Assembly: GCF_030553305.1 (NCBI RefSeq)
Contig: NZ_JARRAH010000006.1
Coordinates: 1-64,000, forward strand
Source: Halomarina ordinaria
Lineage (GTDB): Archaea > Halobacteriota > Halobacteria > Halobacteriales > Haloarculaceae
Length of the DNA stretch: 64,000 bases
Direction: 5' to 3'
Program-made: the position numbers and the translations under genes
Notes under the pieces: model-generated
The model's database searches: none
Told to the model about the DNA's origin: nothing
What the model saw: the letters and a program-made list of their open reading frames with translations, nothing else
Part shown: piece after piece, positions 20,898 to 50,826 of the stretch
How positions within the stretch are numbered: position 1 is the stretch's first letter
Layout: each line of letters begins with the position of its first letter

Positions 20898-20982
20898 ACA
20901 CCGCGTTTCCGGTGAATCGGCGGAGCGAACACCACGTTTCCGGTGAATCGGCGAGGCTGACACCGCGTTTCCAGTGAACCGG
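20898..20982. repeat. Three Orc-box repeats at exact 31-bp spacing
   Basis: 23-bp direct repeats at 20898-20920, 20929-20951 and 20960-20982; the core is ACACCRCGTTTCCRGTGAA. Starts are exactly 31 bp apart, three helical turns, so bound proteins would line up on one face. They lie just past the 3' end of orc1 (stop at 21013) and match the boxes in the origin on the other side of that gene. Confidence 0.85.
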
Positions 20983-21012: not shown

Positions 21013-22212
21013 TCAGTCGATGGTGTCGGCGAGGACGCTCTGGACGACGGTCGGGTCCTCGAGCAGGCGGTGTTCGGTGTAGCTCCCCTCCGCGCTCCCG
21101 CCGCTGTAGCGCGACTGCTCGATGACGTCGAGGAAGGCGTGTTCCTTCAGGAGGTCGCGGACGCGCCGCAGCGAGAGCGACTCCGAGCCCTCCTGGCGAC
21201 AGACCTGCTCGTAGAGTTCGTAGATGCGCGTCGTGCGGAACGCCTCGTCGTCGTGCTCGTTGAGCGAGAGGACCGTGAGGGCCTGGAGGACGTACCGCGA
21301 GTGGGGGGTCGACCCGCGGATGAGTTCCCTGAACCGGTCGGTCTCCGCGCGCTGGCGCGCCTGGACGACGAACTCCTCGCGGACGACGTCCGCGCCGGTG
21401 GACTGGGCGATCTCGCCGGCGTAGCGCAGGATGTCGATGGCCTTGCGCGCGTCCCCGTGTTCCCGCGCCGCGAGCGCGGCGGCCCGGGGGACCACCGAAT
21501 CGTCGAGGACGCCCTCGTGGAAGGCGTCGCTGCGTGCCTGCATGATGTCGCCGAGTTGCTGGGCGTCGTAGGGTGGGAAGACGAACTCGCGCTCGCAGAG
21601 GCTCGACTTCACCCGCTCGTCCATCCGGTCTTTGTACTTGATCTTGTTACTGATGCCGATGACGCCGATCTTGCACGACGTGAGCTTCCCGGCCTCGCCC
21701 GCGCGCGAGAGTTGCATGAGGATGTCGTCACCGTCGAGTTTGTCGATCTCGTCGAGGATGACGAGGACGACGTCGTACCGGGTGTCGAGGATGGTCCAGA
21801 GGCGCTTGTAGTACGTCGCCGTGCTGATACCCTTGTCGGGGATGTTGATACCGGTCGCTGCGGCGTCGTTGAGGCTACTCGCGATGGTCTGGACCGCCTG
21901 CGTCTCCGTCGAGTCCTGCGCGCAGTCGACGTAGGCGTACGCCGTCGTCACGCCTTCCTCCTCGGCGGTCCTGATGAGGCGACCGGAGACGTACTTCGCA
22001 CACAGCGACTTCCCCGTCCCCGTCTTCCCGTAGATGAGGACGTTGCTCGGGCTCTGGCCGAAGATAGCCGGGTTGACCGCGTTCGCCAACTGACCGATCT
22101 CCTCGTCGCGCCCGACGATGCGTCCCTCGTCGGGGAGGTGGTTGATCTCGAGAAGTTCCTTGTTCACGAAGATAGGGTCTTCTCGGATGAATAGGTCGTC
22201 CGTGTCGGTCAT
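21013..22212 (-). CDS. orc1: Orc1/Cdc6 origin-binding initiator
   Basis: 399 residues from ATG 22212 (MTDTDDLFIR); the frame is open upstream but runs through an Orc box and low-quality sequence. AAA+ features: Walker A YGKTGTGKS (61-69), Walker B VILDEIDKLD (151-160), sensor-1 IGISNK (185-190), then ERVKSSLCEREFVFPPY and a lid. The C-terminal winged helix (SLRRVRDLLKEHAFLDVIEQSRY) binds origin boxes. Role: recognises the origin, melts it and loads MCM. It is flanked on both sides by matching boxes, the usual sign of a cognate initiator-origin pair. Transcription runs away from the origin. Confidence 0.96.
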   Translation of the reverse strand: MTDTDDLFIREDPIFVNKELLEINHLPDEGRIVGRDEEIGQLANAVNPAIFGQSPSNVLIYGKTGTGKSLCAKYVSGRLIRTAEEEGVTTAYAYVDCAQDSTETQAVQTIASSLNDAAATGINIPDKGISTATYYKRLWTILDTRYDVVLVILDEIDKLDGDDILMQLSRAGEAGKLTSCKIGVIGISNKIKYKDRMDERVKSSLCEREFVFPPYDAQQLGDIMQARSDAFHEGVLDDSVVPRAAALAAREHGDARKAIDILRYAGEIAQSTGADVVREEFVVQARQRAETDRFRELIRGSTPHSRYVLQALTVLSLNEHDDEAFRTTRIYELYEQVCRQEGSESLSLRRVRDLLKEHAFLDVIEQSRYSGGSAEGSYTEHRLLEDPTVVQSVLADTID

Positions 22213-22219
22213 TCGTTGG

Positions 22220-22242
22220 ACACCACGTTTCCGGTGAAACTG
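22220..22242 (-). promoter_or_regulatory. Orc box in the orc1 promoter
   Basis: ACACCACGTTTCCGGTGAAA starts 8 bp before the orc1 start codon. Initiator binding here would cover the promoter or transcript start, giving autoregulation, while also forming part of the origin. Confidence 0.75.
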
Positions 22243-22357: not shown

Positions 22358-22392
22358 CGAGACACACACACCGCGTTTCCGGTGAAACGGGG
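22358..22392 (-). repeat. Left arm of 35-bp inverted repeat (extended Orc box with G-tail)
   Basis: Contains the box ACACCGCGTTTCCGGTGAAA followed by CGGGG and preceded by CGAGACACAC. All 35 bases match the reverse complement of 23015-23049. The terminal G run resembles the G-string of known haloarchaeal origin boxes. Confidence 0.9.
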
Positions 22393-22767: not shown

Positions 22768-22805
22768 TCAGGTCCGAGAGAACGACCTGAGAACGGTAAC
22801 CGTTC
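22768..22805. repeat. Two adjacent hairpins in the origin
   Basis: TCAGGTC-(9 nt)-GACCTGA at 22768-22790 abuts GAACGGT-A-ACCGTTC at 22791-22805; both stems are perfect 7-bp. They lie about midway between the 35-bp inverted repeats. Confidence 0.6.
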
Positions 22806-23014
22806 TCCTCTTACTCTCCAACGGTAAGTTAATGGACTGTTGCACTAGCTACTGCTTATTTGTTTTGGTATCTAGTATCGGCGTCGTCGGAGGAGCTAGC
22901 TCAACTCCTCGTGCTATATCTGACTTTTCTGTTCAGATCGGTATCTGTCACGATGATTCCTCCCCGTCCTCGGCAAATAGTGCCTCTTCTGGCCTGGGGG
23001 GGAGGGGCCTCTCT

Positions 23015-23049
23015 CCCCGTTTCACCGGAAACGCGGTGTGTGTGTCTCG
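23015..23049 (+). repeat. Right arm of 35-bp inverted repeat (extended Orc box with G-tail)
   Basis: Exact reverse complement of 22358-22392, 622 bp apart. Read on the plus strand it is CCCCGTTTCACCGGAAACGC followed by GGTGTGTGTGTCTCG. Confidence 0.9.
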
Positions 23050-23174: not shown

Positions 23175-23197
23175 ATATTTCACCGGAAACGTGGTGT
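23175..23197 (+). repeat. Orc box
   Basis: Plus-orientation copy with core TTTCACCGGAAACGTGGTGT; only the first bases (ATA instead of CCG) differ from the consensus. Confidence 0.85.
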
Positions 23198-23268: not shown

Positions 23269-23291
23269 ACACCGAATTTCCGGTGAATCGG
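23269..23291 (-). repeat. Orc box left of the AT-rich element
   Basis: ACACCGAATTTCCGGTGAAT; minus orientation, two changes in the left part relative to consensus. It faces the box at 23338-23360 across 46 bp of mostly A/T. Confidence 0.8.
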
Positions 23292-23337: not shown

Positions 23338-23360
23338 GACTTCCACCGGAAACACGGTGT
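23338..23360 (+). repeat. Orc box right of the AT-rich element
   Basis: TTCCACCGGAAACACGGTGT at 23341-23360, plus orientation, inverted relative to the box at 23269-23291. Confidence 0.83.
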
Positions 23361-23485: not shown

Positions 23486-23508
23486 TGGTTTCACCGGAAG
23501 CGAGGTGT
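23486..23508 (+). repeat. Orc box nearest the par operon
   Basis: GTTTCACCGGAAGCGAGGTGT-type copy with one change in the core (AAGC for AAAC). Its last bases overlap the hairpin at 23505-23524. Confidence 0.75.
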
Positions 23509-23564
23509 CCCTTCGGAGGGACACTGGGGGGACACTGGAGGGACACTGGAGGAACACCGGAGGG
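23505..23564. repeat. Hairpin plus four 11-bp iterons at the par operon 3' end
   Basis: GTGTCCCT-TCGG-AGGGACAC (23505-23524) is a perfect 8-bp stem with a 4-nt loop. It runs into four direct 11-bp units starting at 23521, 23532, 23543 and 23554 with consensus ACACTGGAGGG; the fourth reads ACACCGGAGGG. An 11-bp period keeps sites on one helical face. The array ends 17 bp before the stop of the ParA-partner gene, a common place for a partition centromere. Confidence 0.65.
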
Positions 23565-23580
23565 ACGACCGGGTCGCGCC

Positions 23581-24180
23581 CTACAGGTCGTCCAGAAGGG
23601 ACGCGATACGGTTCGCGTCCGCCCCGTCGAGTGTCTCGAAGCCGTGTTTGACGACCAGTGGGAAGAAGTGGCGGTTCTTCTCGAACTCCCGGTCGTACTC
23701 GTACTCGTATGCGACCTTGAGCGTCCCGTAGACCCGGTCCAGTTCGCGCTTCTGTGCGTCGGGGAGGTACATGTAGGTCCCCACCCGCTCGCTCTTGACG
23801 CCCCCGCTGGTCGTCCCGGTCTCTCCGTTCGGGGGCCCCGTCCGCGACGTCGAATCCGTCCCTGCGTCGCCGTCGTCAGTACCGTCGCCACCACGTCCCC
23901 GTTCCCGTTCCTGTTCCAGTGTACCGTCACCACCGTCGCCGTCCGACTCGACACCGCTCGTCGCACCATCGCTCGTCGCACCACCGCTCGTCGAACCGTC
24001 CGGTTCGTCCACCGTCTCTATCGACGCGTCCGTCGATGCGTCGGTCTGGTCCGTCGATGCGTCGGTCTGGTCCGTCTCGTCCATCTCGGGGGACACGTCC
24101 TCGCCGGACCGTTCAGCGCGCTGGCGGGCACGCCCTCGGCGGTTTCGAAGCCGGTCCGCGCGGCTTTCCTCGCCGCTCAT
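23581..24180 (-). CDS. ParA partner protein with disordered middle
   Basis: 199 residues. A basic N-terminus (SRADRLRNRRGRARQRAERSG) is followed by ~100 residues of low-complexity Ser/Thr/Asp/Gly with TDQTDAS repeated, then a folded C-terminus (VGTYMYLPDAQKRELDRVYG, FEKNRHFFPLVVKHGFETLDG). Its ATG overlaps the ParA stop (ATGA). This domain, with YMYLP and EKNRHFFPLV, is one I recall next to ParA in many haloarchaeal replicons; I cannot confirm its family number. Inference: centromere-binding or ParA-stimulating factor replacing ParB. The basic N-terminus could stimulate the ParA ATPase; the C-terminus may bind DNA. Confidence 0.8.
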   Translation of the reverse strand: MSGEESRADRLRNRRGRARQRAERSGEDVSPEMDETDQTDASTDQTDASTDASIETVDEPDGSTSGGATSDGATSGVESDGDGGDGTLEQERERGRGGDGTDDGDAGTDSTSRTGPPNGETGTTSGGVKSERVGTYMYLPDAQKRELDRVYGTLKVAYEYEYDREFEKNRHFFPLVVKHGFETLDGADANRIASLLDDL

Positions 24181-24992
24181 CGCGACGCCTCCACGCCGGA
24201 CGCGGTGGTCGCCGCCGCCGAACCGAACCCGAACTGTTCGTCCAGGTCGGCGGCGATGGCGAGGAACTCCTCGGCCATGTCGACGGGTTCCTCGTACTCG
24301 AACAGCGAGACGCCGTCGCTGAACGCCCGCTGGAGTGCGACGCGCTTCCTGACCTCCCAGACGGGGATGTCGGGGAAGGCGTCCTCGAACCAGGCCATCA
24401 TCTCGCGGGCCTCGTTGGTCGTCTCGACGCGGTTGGCGACCAGACCGCGCTCGCGGACCGTGATGTCGTAGTCGAGTTCCAGCGCCTCGACGTGGTCGAA
24501 GAGGAGTTCGAGCGCCCGCTTGCTCGTCGACTCCGCGAGCGCGGGAATCAGCACGTTCCCCGTCGCGTGCAGCGCGTTGTCGGTCAGGTAGCCGAGGTGC
24601 GGCGGGCAGTCGACGATGACGTAGTCGTAGTCGTCCTCGACGTGGTCGAGCGCCAGCGCCAACTGTTCGCCGCCGCGACGCGACAGCGTCAGCTCCGGCT
24701 CCGCCGCGGTCATGTCGATGTTGCTCGGGATCACGTCCATCGCGGGGTGCTCGTGGACGAGGTCGGCGATGGCGCCCCGGGACTCCGCGTCGGTCAGGAC
24801 GTCGAAGAGGCTCGGCGGCGCGGCGTCGTACGCCTCGCGGAGGCCGAGGCCCTCGCTCGCGTTCCCCTGCGGGTCGAGGTCGACGAACAGGACGTCGCGC
24901 CCGCGAGCGTTGAGCGCGCCGGCGACGTTGATGGCGACGGTCGTCTTCCCGACGCCACCTTTCTGGTTCGAGACGGCCAGTCGAGCGGGCAT
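24177..24992 (-). CDS. parA: ParA/Soj-type partition ATPase
   Basis: 271 residues from ATG 24992 (MPARLAVSNQ). Deviant Walker A KGGVGKTT (11-18), Walker A' FVDLDPQGN (36-44) and Walker B YVIVDCPPHLG identify a ParA ATPase that segregates DNA by patterned binding to the nucleoid. No N-terminal helix-turn-helix, so it resembles chromosomal/type Ib ParA and any operon repression would depend on the partner. First gene of the par operon and close to the origin, as expected for replicon partition. Confidence 0.94.
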   Translation of the reverse strand: MPARLAVSNQKGGVGKTTVAINVAGALNARGRDVLFVDLDPQGNASEGLGLREAYDAAPPSLFDVLTDAESRGAIADLVHEHPAMDVIPSNIDMTAAEPELTLSRRGGEQLALALDHVEDDYDYVIVDCPPHLGYLTDNALHATGNVLIPALAESTSKRALELLFDHVEALELDYDITVRERGLVANRVETTNEAREMMAWFEDAFPDIPVWEVRKRVALQRAFSDGVSLFEYEEPVDMAEEFLAIAADLDEQFGFGSAAATTASGVEASR

Positions 24993-25644
24993 CACCGGCC
25001 CCTCCGCGACCGGCACCCCACCGGTCGTCGCTTCGCTCGGTCTGTCGTTCCGGACTTCGGGACGGTCATACTCTATCGTTCGGACCTGCGACCTTAATCG
25101 TACGTCAGACGCCGGTCGGACGTTTCGGCTCTCTCTTTACGTTCGTACCTCTCGTACAGTTTGGACGAACTTGCTATCTCTGACGTACGTACTAGTTCGT
25201 ACAAACTCGACGCGCTCGGCTGACGTCCCGACCCCCCTCTCCTCTCCTCTCCTCTCCTCTCCTCTCCTCTCCTCTCCTCTCCTCTCCTCTCCTCTCCTCT
25301 CCGTTCCCCTACTCACCACAGGACGGCTCACGGCCTCGTCCGACCCATTCGGTTCTCTCGGGTGGTTCTGACGGTTCGGCGAGTTTGGACGATTGGGATA
25401 TCTCGGACAACTCGTCGTGCGGTCCTCCCGGGTGTGTGCTCCGGCGACACACGAACGTGCGCCCGGGTCCCACTGGAGGAGCCACGACCCGAACAGGTCT
25501 GACAGCCAAACTCTATGGGCTGTCTCGTCCCGTTCGTATTATTTGTACAGTTTGTACAGTTAGTATCGTTTGTCCCATTCGGACGAGTTCGACGACAGTT
25601 CGCGGTCGAACGAGGTCCGGTGAGCGTTGCTTCGCGGCCGTCGC
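24993..25644. other. Intergenic region upstream of parA with repeated motifs
   Basis: 652 bp, AT-richer than average, no supported gene. A motif near GAGTTTGKACGA recurs: CAGTTTGGACGAAC (25157-25170), its inverted form at 25195-25208 (GAGTTTGTACGAAC on the minus strand) and GAGTTTGGACGATT (25381-25394). Two perfect 9-bp units TTGTACAGT (25543-25551, 25552-25560) are followed by two degenerate ones to 25578. These may be operators or centromere sites. Confidence 0.55.
25236..25300. repeat. Pentanucleotide microsatellite (CCTCT)13
   Basis: Thirteen perfect CCTCT units between the parA promoter and the recombinase gene. Such a tract may slip between clones and is polypyrimidine, so it could adopt H-DNA under supercoiling. 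Confidence 0.95.
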
Positions 25645-26838
25645 TCACTCGAGTTCGTCGAGGTGGGCGTCGATGCGTTCGGTCCGCTCCTCGGCGTCGA
25701 TGTGCTGGTAGGCCTCCCGGGTCGTCGAGAGGGACTTGTGGCGCGCGAGGTCCTGGGCGTCCCCCCGGTCGCGCCGGTAGACCGCCTCGAGCATCCCGCG
25801 GCGCGCACCGTGGAGTTGGAGGTAGCCCGGACCGTCCTCGTCGACGTCGACGCCGGCTTCGTCGGTCAGTCGGCGCAGCAGCGAGCGCGCGCCCGCCGTC
25901 GTGAGCGCCGGCGGAGCGACGTCGTGCTCGCGGAGGACGCACTCGACGTCCTTCGCCTCCAATATTTCGTCGGCGTCCGAGCCGAGCGCCTCGCGGACGG
26001 CGCGGTACTTGCTCGGCGCGTGGGCGGTGGGGAACACCGGCCAGTCGTCGCTCGGGGGGCGCTGGACCGCTCGCCAGCGCTCCAGTCCCCGTGCGGCGAC
26101 GCGTGGCAACAGCGCGGCCTCCCGGCGCTGGTCCTTCCCGAGGACGCGCATCGTCCCCCGGTCGAGGTCCACGTCGCGCCAGCGGAGCCCCTGACGCCCC
26201 GGCCGGTCGTCCTTCGGGTGTCTGAGGACCTCCGCGCCCCGGACGGCGGCGTACGCCAAGACGCGCACCAGCGCCCGGTCGCGCACCGGCGTCCCCGCGT
26301 CGAGGCCGTCGGTCTCGACGGCGGTCGCCGCGCGCCGGTCGACGAACGCGACCAGCCGCCGGCGCTGCTCGGGCGACCAGAACTGCTGGTCGGTCCGGTC
26401 GCGCTCGGCGTCGGGGAGTTCCTCGCGCGCACGGTCGGCGAGCGCTGGATTCCGCGAGAGGACGCCGTCGCGCACCGCGTAGGAGAGACAGCCGGAGACG
26501 TACGCGAAGTAGGTGTGGGCCGTCGTCGGTGCGATGCCGTCGTCCCCCCGGGTTCGCCGGGCGAGGTGGGCGGCGTACCGGCGCATCACCCGTCGGCCGT
26601 CGTCGTCGAGGTCGACGAGCCCGTAGTCCCGCGCGTCCATCCACGCGCGCCACCGGCGGAGTTCCGACGCCGCGCTCGCCCGGTAGGTCCCCGTCGGCGT
26701 CCCGTCCCCGCGCGCCCCTCGGCTCTTGGAATCGAGGTAGCGCGCGACGAGCGTCTCGAGGTTCTCCTCGTCCCGTCCGAGTGGGGCAGGGCCCGTGTCC
26801 TCACGCCCGTCACCGCCGTCGCGCTCGTCGAGTCCCAT
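25645..26838 (-). CDS. Tyrosine recombinase (Xer/phage-integrase family)
   Basis: 397 residues from ATG 26838; a GTG at 26865 would add nine. An N-terminal SAM-like core-binding domain (~25-130) precedes the catalytic domain with all six residues: R200 (AYAAVRGAEVL), K235 (VLGKDQRRE), H343 and R346 (LHGARRGML), H367 (ARHKSLSTT) and Y377 nucleophile (REAYQHID). Complete, so likely active. Role: site-specific strand exchange, either resolving replicon dimers at a dif-like site or integrating an element. A 28-bp palindrome 36 bp upstream is a candidate target. Its partner region (orc1, par) favours dimer resolution. Confidence 0.93.
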   Translation of the reverse strand: MGLDERDGGDGREDTGPAPLGRDEENLETLVARYLDSKSRGARGDGTPTGTYRASAASELRRWRAWMDARDYGLVDLDDDGRRVMRRYAAHLARRTRGDDGIAPTTAHTYFAYVSGCLSYAVRDGVLSRNPALADRAREELPDAERDRTDQQFWSPEQRRRLVAFVDRRAATAVETDGLDAGTPVRDRALVRVLAYAAVRGAEVLRHPKDDRPGRQGLRWRDVDLDRGTMRVLGKDQRREAALLPRVAARGLERWRAVQRPPSDDWPVFPTAHAPSKYRAVREALGSDADEILEAKDVECVLREHDVAPPALTTAGARSLLRRLTDEAGVDVDEDGPGYLQLHGARRGMLEAVYRRDRGDAQDLARHKSLSTTREAYQHIDAEERTERIDAHLDELE

Positions 26839-50693: not shown

Positions 50694-50826
50694 GCGTCCG
50701 AACCGCCCGACCCCTCCGAACCGACCGAACTATCGGGCCGGCGCGAGCCGGTCCGGACGCCACGCACCGCCGACCGACCGACCCCGCAGACGGACGTCAC
50801 GAACACGACCACACGCACACACCGCT

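Follow-up and report, generated by a model that had tools for sequence, protein, structure and literature searches.

Which DNA element could act as the centromere of a haloarchaeal plasmid that encodes a ParA ATPase and no ParB? Haloarchaea carry many large replicons, yet no defined centromere for a haloarchaeal plasmid was found in the literature searched (few subscription journals were covered), and the appearance of archaeal centromeres has been listed as an open question (PMC5120986). The DNA analysed here, called the window throughout, covers the opening 64 kb of contig C6, which measures 93,953 bp and belongs to a genome of six contigs; from two sister replicons we infer that C6 is a 94-kb Halomarina plasmid. 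An earlier note on this DNA proposed as centromere a hairpin running into four 11-bp repeats directly after the gene of the ParA partner. The general part of that idea, a plasmid with ParA, a non-ParB partner and an iteron centromere, fits the evidence; the specific site does not. We consider it likely that the centromere and operator of the plasmid is not the hairpin with its 11-bp array but a 9-bp array upstream of parA.

A ParA module with a predicted non-ParB partner

The parA gene (24177–25016, minus strand) encodes a deviant-Walker ATPase of 279 amino acids with the motif KGGVGKTT near residue 20, which matches AAA_31 (3e-42) and CbiA (3e-21) only and has no N-terminal HTH. Directly downstream in the same operon, and overlapping parA by 4 bp, lies the partner gene (23581–24180, minus strand); its product of 199 amino acids combines a low-complexity N-terminus with a conserved C-terminal domain of about 75 residues. 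A profile built from 14 sequences detects the partner family in 167 of the 391 genomes of the class, and in all 73 sampled loci of the family parA stands directly upstream of the partner. The earlier note was right that a ParB gene and a canonical parS are missing: a search of the whole genome for ParB_N (PF02195) found nothing, while the control search was positive in 10 of 14 genomes, and the parS sequence TGTTTCACGTGAAACA is unmatched in the window at up to 3 mismatches. With neither a ParB_N/CTPase domain in the genome nor a parS in the window, the locus does not belong to the HTH-type ParABS systems, and the plasmid, as read from its genes, has a predicted ParA system whose partner is of a non-ParB kind. 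A small deviant-Walker ParA without an HTH, a partner gene directly behind it and, as described below, phased short repeats in front of parA are traits that it shares with type Ib-like par systems.

The partner has no Pfam match, and its profile finds no chain at E ≤ 10 in a search of all PDB chains, in which, at the sequence level, no homology to SegB appeared either; its only matches are to PHROG families of unknown function. The AlphaFold model of a relative, of moderate quality (pLDDT 67), shows the order strand-helix-helix, which suggests a ribbon-helix-helix (RHH) fold. The model of the window's own partner contains no strand, and a fold search of the PDB gave no significant match.

Copies of the gene pair occur elsewhere. 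In the same genome, the contig of the main chromosome (G000:C1:570980-572067) encodes a 65% identical ParA next to a partner-like gene, without a strong 9-bp array. A search with ParA recovered the pair on three IMG/VR viral contigs (L222, L223 and L242), from which it appears that viruses or proviruses transport the module as well; the partner used as query against the viral contigs found nothing.

The hairpin and the 11-bp repeats

The elements described in the earlier note are present. The hairpin, with its perfect 8-bp stem (GTGTCCCT-TCGG-AGGGACAC), occupies 23505–23524 on the plus strand and runs into four repeats (23521–23564, plus strand) that start at exact 11-bp spacing at 23521, 23532, 23543 and 23554, with 0–1 mismatches to ACACTGGAGGG. 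Their position directly after the partner gene was also correctly given: the gene lies on the minus strand, its stop codon is at 23581–23583, and the array lies 17 bp past the gene. As a tandem repeat the array exceeds chance, since TRF (23515–23566, 4.7 copies, 87% match) assigns it a score of 83, a value that 20 dinucleotide-shuffled versions of the window never reached (their highest score was 75), and the local lag-11 z is 5.7. The hairpin is unremarkable; a perfect 8-bp stem with a loop of 3–8 nt can be formed from 54 start positions in the 64 kb, and we rejected it as a significant structure on this ground. That it terminates the parA-partner operon is barely credible: it follows the partner stop codon at a distance of 57–76 bp, and a transcript would contain it as a hairpin, but archaeal termination depends on a T-run, none is found at the hairpin, its fold is no better than that of shuffled sequence (z = -0.99) and it is not conserved, and we rejected the terminator as well.

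The earlier note had overlooked an ORB whose 3' tail supplies the left arm of the hairpin, GGTGT opening the arm. This ORB (23489–23508, plus strand, TTTCACCGGAAGCGAGGTGT) is the outermost on the right of ten such Orc1/Cdc6 sites around an orc1/cdc6 initiator gene (21013–22212, minus strand, 399 amino acids; TIGR02928 at E = 1e-129, Cdc6_lid and Cdc6_C). Three further ORBs (20898–20979, minus strand) are spaced by 31 bp downstream of orc1/cdc6, as found by the ORB scan and by TRF with period 31, and one (22220–22239, minus strand), an exact match to TTTCNCCGGAAACGNGGTGT, adjoins the start codon. Two inverted inner ORBs, at 22368–22387 (minus strand, conserved in sister plasmids) and 23020–23039 (plus strand), flank a relatively AT-rich stretch at 22801–23000 (AT 0.48–0.53, against 0.32–0.39 on its immediate flanks), a candidate unwinding region. 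To the right follow ORBs at 23178–23197 (plus strand), 23269–23288 (minus strand, degenerate with 3 mismatches) and 23341–23360 (plus strand). The cumulative GC skew curve turns here, peaking at 22–23 kb, and the whole is a typical haloarchaeal Orc1/Cdc6-ORB origin, as predicted from these features. With one of its ten ORBs immediately left of the repeats, the hairpin and the 11-bp repeats form the outer rim of this predicted origin; the repeats lie outside the ORB array and not between the inner ORBs.

Five sister plasmids, all from this genus, have retained cdc6 (91–94% identical), ParA (81–89%) and the partner, whose C-terminal segment is 71–85% identical where it could be aligned alone. 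In all five the 11-bp array is absent after the partner gene, and in all five an ORB stands there. This holds also for the two sisters L034 (G002) and L037 (G006), in which the block of cdc6 and origin has the opposite orientation to parA-partner and an ORB still follows the partner. The same two plasmids have an ORB within the parA upstream region as well. A blastn search of 72,556 plasmids (PLSDB) with the repeat region returned chance-level matches only, none relevant, and in the rest of its own genome the double repeat has no second copy when up to 2 mismatches are allowed. Beyond Halomarina, adjacent ORBs are missing from every group A par locus, and only one (L163) has a nearby cdc6, 31% identical. 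Since group A loci of other genera lack ORBs beside par, origin and par are, judging from this distribution, separable modules.

Among explanations of the repeats as functional elements, a small chance remains for the view that they are degenerate Orc1/Cdc6 half-sites or a G-rich element modulating the origin, much like the G-rich enhancer of Haloarcula hispanica oriC1 or clusters of titrating ORBs. Three of the four copies share their core, CACTGGA or CACCGGA, with the ORBs next to them, at a score reached at only 28 of 128,000 positions of the window; the repeats abut ORB 23489–23508; and haloarchaeal origins are tuned by G-rich repeats and extra ORB clusters (PMC3936714). On the other side, the match to a full-length ORB is poor, the core was spotted after the fact, and the repeats lie beyond the ORB array and are missing in the sisters. 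Weak binding of Orc1/Cdc6 is possible given the core CACYGGA in three copies, and the array would contribute to initiator binding only slightly, if at all.

Very unlikely is the reading of the earlier note, in the form that the hairpin and repeats are a partner-binding centromere that evolved recently in this plasmid. The array is real, tandem and next to the partner gene, and an RHH partner, omega for example, needs no more than four contiguous repeats (PMC9499535). However, five sisters do without it despite their similar ParA and strongly conserved partner C-termini, so that the sisters could not share one centromere, and the repeats sit at an origin ORB, are unrelated to the 9-bp motif described below, and belong to an origin that is not linked to par outside the genus. 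We rejected the array as centromere because it is absent in all relatives examined; it probably arose by tandem duplication on the rim of the origin, recently and in this plasmid alone. The case warns against naming a centromere from one plasmid, as comparison with sisters removes it.

The 9-bp array upstream of parA

Upstream of parA, on the minus strand, lie three runs of a 9-bp repeat: 16 units at 25059–25202 (score 49.3), extending over a region with the promoter-like TTAAG of parA; 9 units at 25337–25417 (score 42.5; lag-9 z of 3.5 in 25303–25430); and 14 units at 25486–25611 (score 52.1, the best in 64 kb; lag-9 z of 3.8 in 25500–25644). The scores come from a matrix trained on the array intervals of the five sisters only (consensus GTCCGAACY, core CGAA), with motif seed and training intervals picked after the sequences had been viewed. 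These are the three best runs of the window; the next scores 30.2 and all others 16.5 or less, and with the same matrix 20 shuffled windows gave maxima up to 22.9. A scan for 9-bp periodicity that uses no motif and is corrected for codon periodicity ranks 25051–25231 first and 25511–25691 second among 180-bp segments of the 64 kb. In the part nearest parA the periodicity of this plasmid is at lag 18, not at lag 9. A matrix derived from all non-Halomarina group A upstream regions, some of which contain coding sequence, collapsed onto codon periodicity and was abandoned; in its place came lag statistics, controlled by lags 6, 12 and 15, and the training on sister intervals.

Two other repeats may be mentioned. 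Inside the parA upstream region lies a microsatellite, (CCTCT)13.4, at 25236–25302 (TRF), and a longer array, (CCTCT)35, lies downstream of cdc6 in the sister G004. The fourth-best run of the window, 9 units on the plus strand at 50696–50776 (GTCCGAACC GCCCGACCC CTCCGAACC GACCGAACT ...), falls between two genes (intergenic region 50694–50826) about 25 kb from parA and is possibly a secondary 9-bp array and partner-binding site.

The upstream array is found across relatives. When each sister was left out of the training in turn, its best or second-best run was upstream of parA; in G007 the array lies on the far side of an HNH-like gene from parA, and in G004 the best run is inside the partner gene. 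In the wider sample of 73 loci, which includes group B with ParA about 40% identical to that of the window, the region upstream of parA is periodic at lags 9 and 18 and not at 6, 12 or 15, with a lag-9 z above 3 in all 30 group B loci and in 10 of 27 group A loci; downstream the periodicity is weak or absent, and group C loci have no 9-bp signal upstream of parA. The Halomarina matrix scores above all shuffles upstream of parA in 30 of 30 group B loci and in 9 of 21 group A loci from other genera. Runs of the motif also occur inside the partner gene, beyond what synonymous randomisation gives (p ≤ 0.01) in 14 of 28 group A loci, one of them Halobacterium salinarum PHS4 with a run of 15 units and a score of 57.2; the intragenic runs of Halomarina itself are mostly not above this control. 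Examples of intragenic iterons are 6744–6860 in L036 (G004:C3:50000-66000) and 1820–1954 in L302 (H. salinarum PHS4), both read as tripeptides like S-E-P or S-E-T.

The 9-bp array is, on this comparative evidence, the better centromere candidate of the two, as it is phylogenetically conserved whereas the 11-bp array is absent in relatives. Onto the observed gene pair and the observed phase, conservation and position of the array, a mechanism can be drawn by analogy with omega/parS and ParG/parH, from which we infer partner binding, repression, ATPase stimulation and partition. Dimers of the partner would sit next to one another on the phased repeats, bound through the C-terminal domain; the coated array would repress the parA-partner promoter; the flexible N-terminal tail would stimulate the ParA ATPase; and the plasmid would follow ParA on the nucleoid.

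It is unlikely, by our estimate, that the 9-bp arrays are an operator for autoregulation only, or an expansion of low-complexity sequence, with the centromere elsewhere. The arrays do overlap the promoter, group C lacks the upstream signal, and low-complexity coding sequence shows this 9-bp period as well, so that slippage may contribute. Against a pure operator stand three points: in RHH systems such as pSM19035 operator and centromere coincide (PMC9499535); motif and phase persist across loci with the distant ParA of group B while the unit sequence differs between sisters; and for half of the group A loci the runs inside the partner gene are stronger than synonymous randomisation yields. The 9-bp array as candidate centromere may, more tentatively, be extended to a partition system widespread in haloarchaea, with a 9-bp iteron centromere of fixed period and drifting sequence that in many lineages lies partly inside the coding sequence of its own binder. 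If this were so, each intragenic 9-bp unit would be read as a tripeptide (S-E-x or T-N-E) in the disordered tail of the partner. The array offers a precise candidate site, present also on plasmid PHS4 of the laboratory organism H. salinarum R1, whose partner protein is OE_RS13300.

Relation to known origins and partition systems

The predicted origin resembles oriC1 and oriC2 of Haloarcula hispanica in having orc1/cdc6, inverted ORBs around a more AT-rich stretch and extra ORBs downstream of cdc6. It differs from them in its ORB tails, which read GGTGT(GTGTGT) without the long G run of the halophile-specific G-string at ORB ends, and in its 11-bp array, which stands outside the ORB pair. The tandem trio at 20898–20979 resembles the titrating ORB cluster downstream of H. 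hispanica cdc6E.

Of the partition systems, delta/omega/parS of pSM19035, an RHH-type ParABS, likewise pairs a ParA-type ATPase with a small non-ParB partner and has contiguous short non-palindromic repeats overlapping the par gene promoters (PMC9499535). Its repeats are 7-bp WATCACW, whereas those considered here are 9-bp GTCCGAACY/nnAACGAAn and in many loci occur inside the partner gene as well, and the haloarchaeal partner has a long low-complexity tail and shows no sequence similarity to any PDB chain that the profile search could detect. ParF/ParG/parH of TP228 shares a ParA-like ATPase and an array of short degenerate repeats, and the flexible N-terminal tail and C-terminal DNA-binding domain of ParG are likened to the architecture predicted for the partner (PMC7308502); parH, unlike the present array, consists of tetramer boxes with AT-rich spacers, and the partners have no detected sequence relation. 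SegAB of the Sulfolobales also combines an archaeal ParA homologue with an overlapping downstream gene for a non-ParB partner and has sites upstream of segA (PMC12284271, PMC5120986), but the SegB sites are palindromes scattered over the chromosome, whereas the candidate site described here is a phased array borne by a plasmid.
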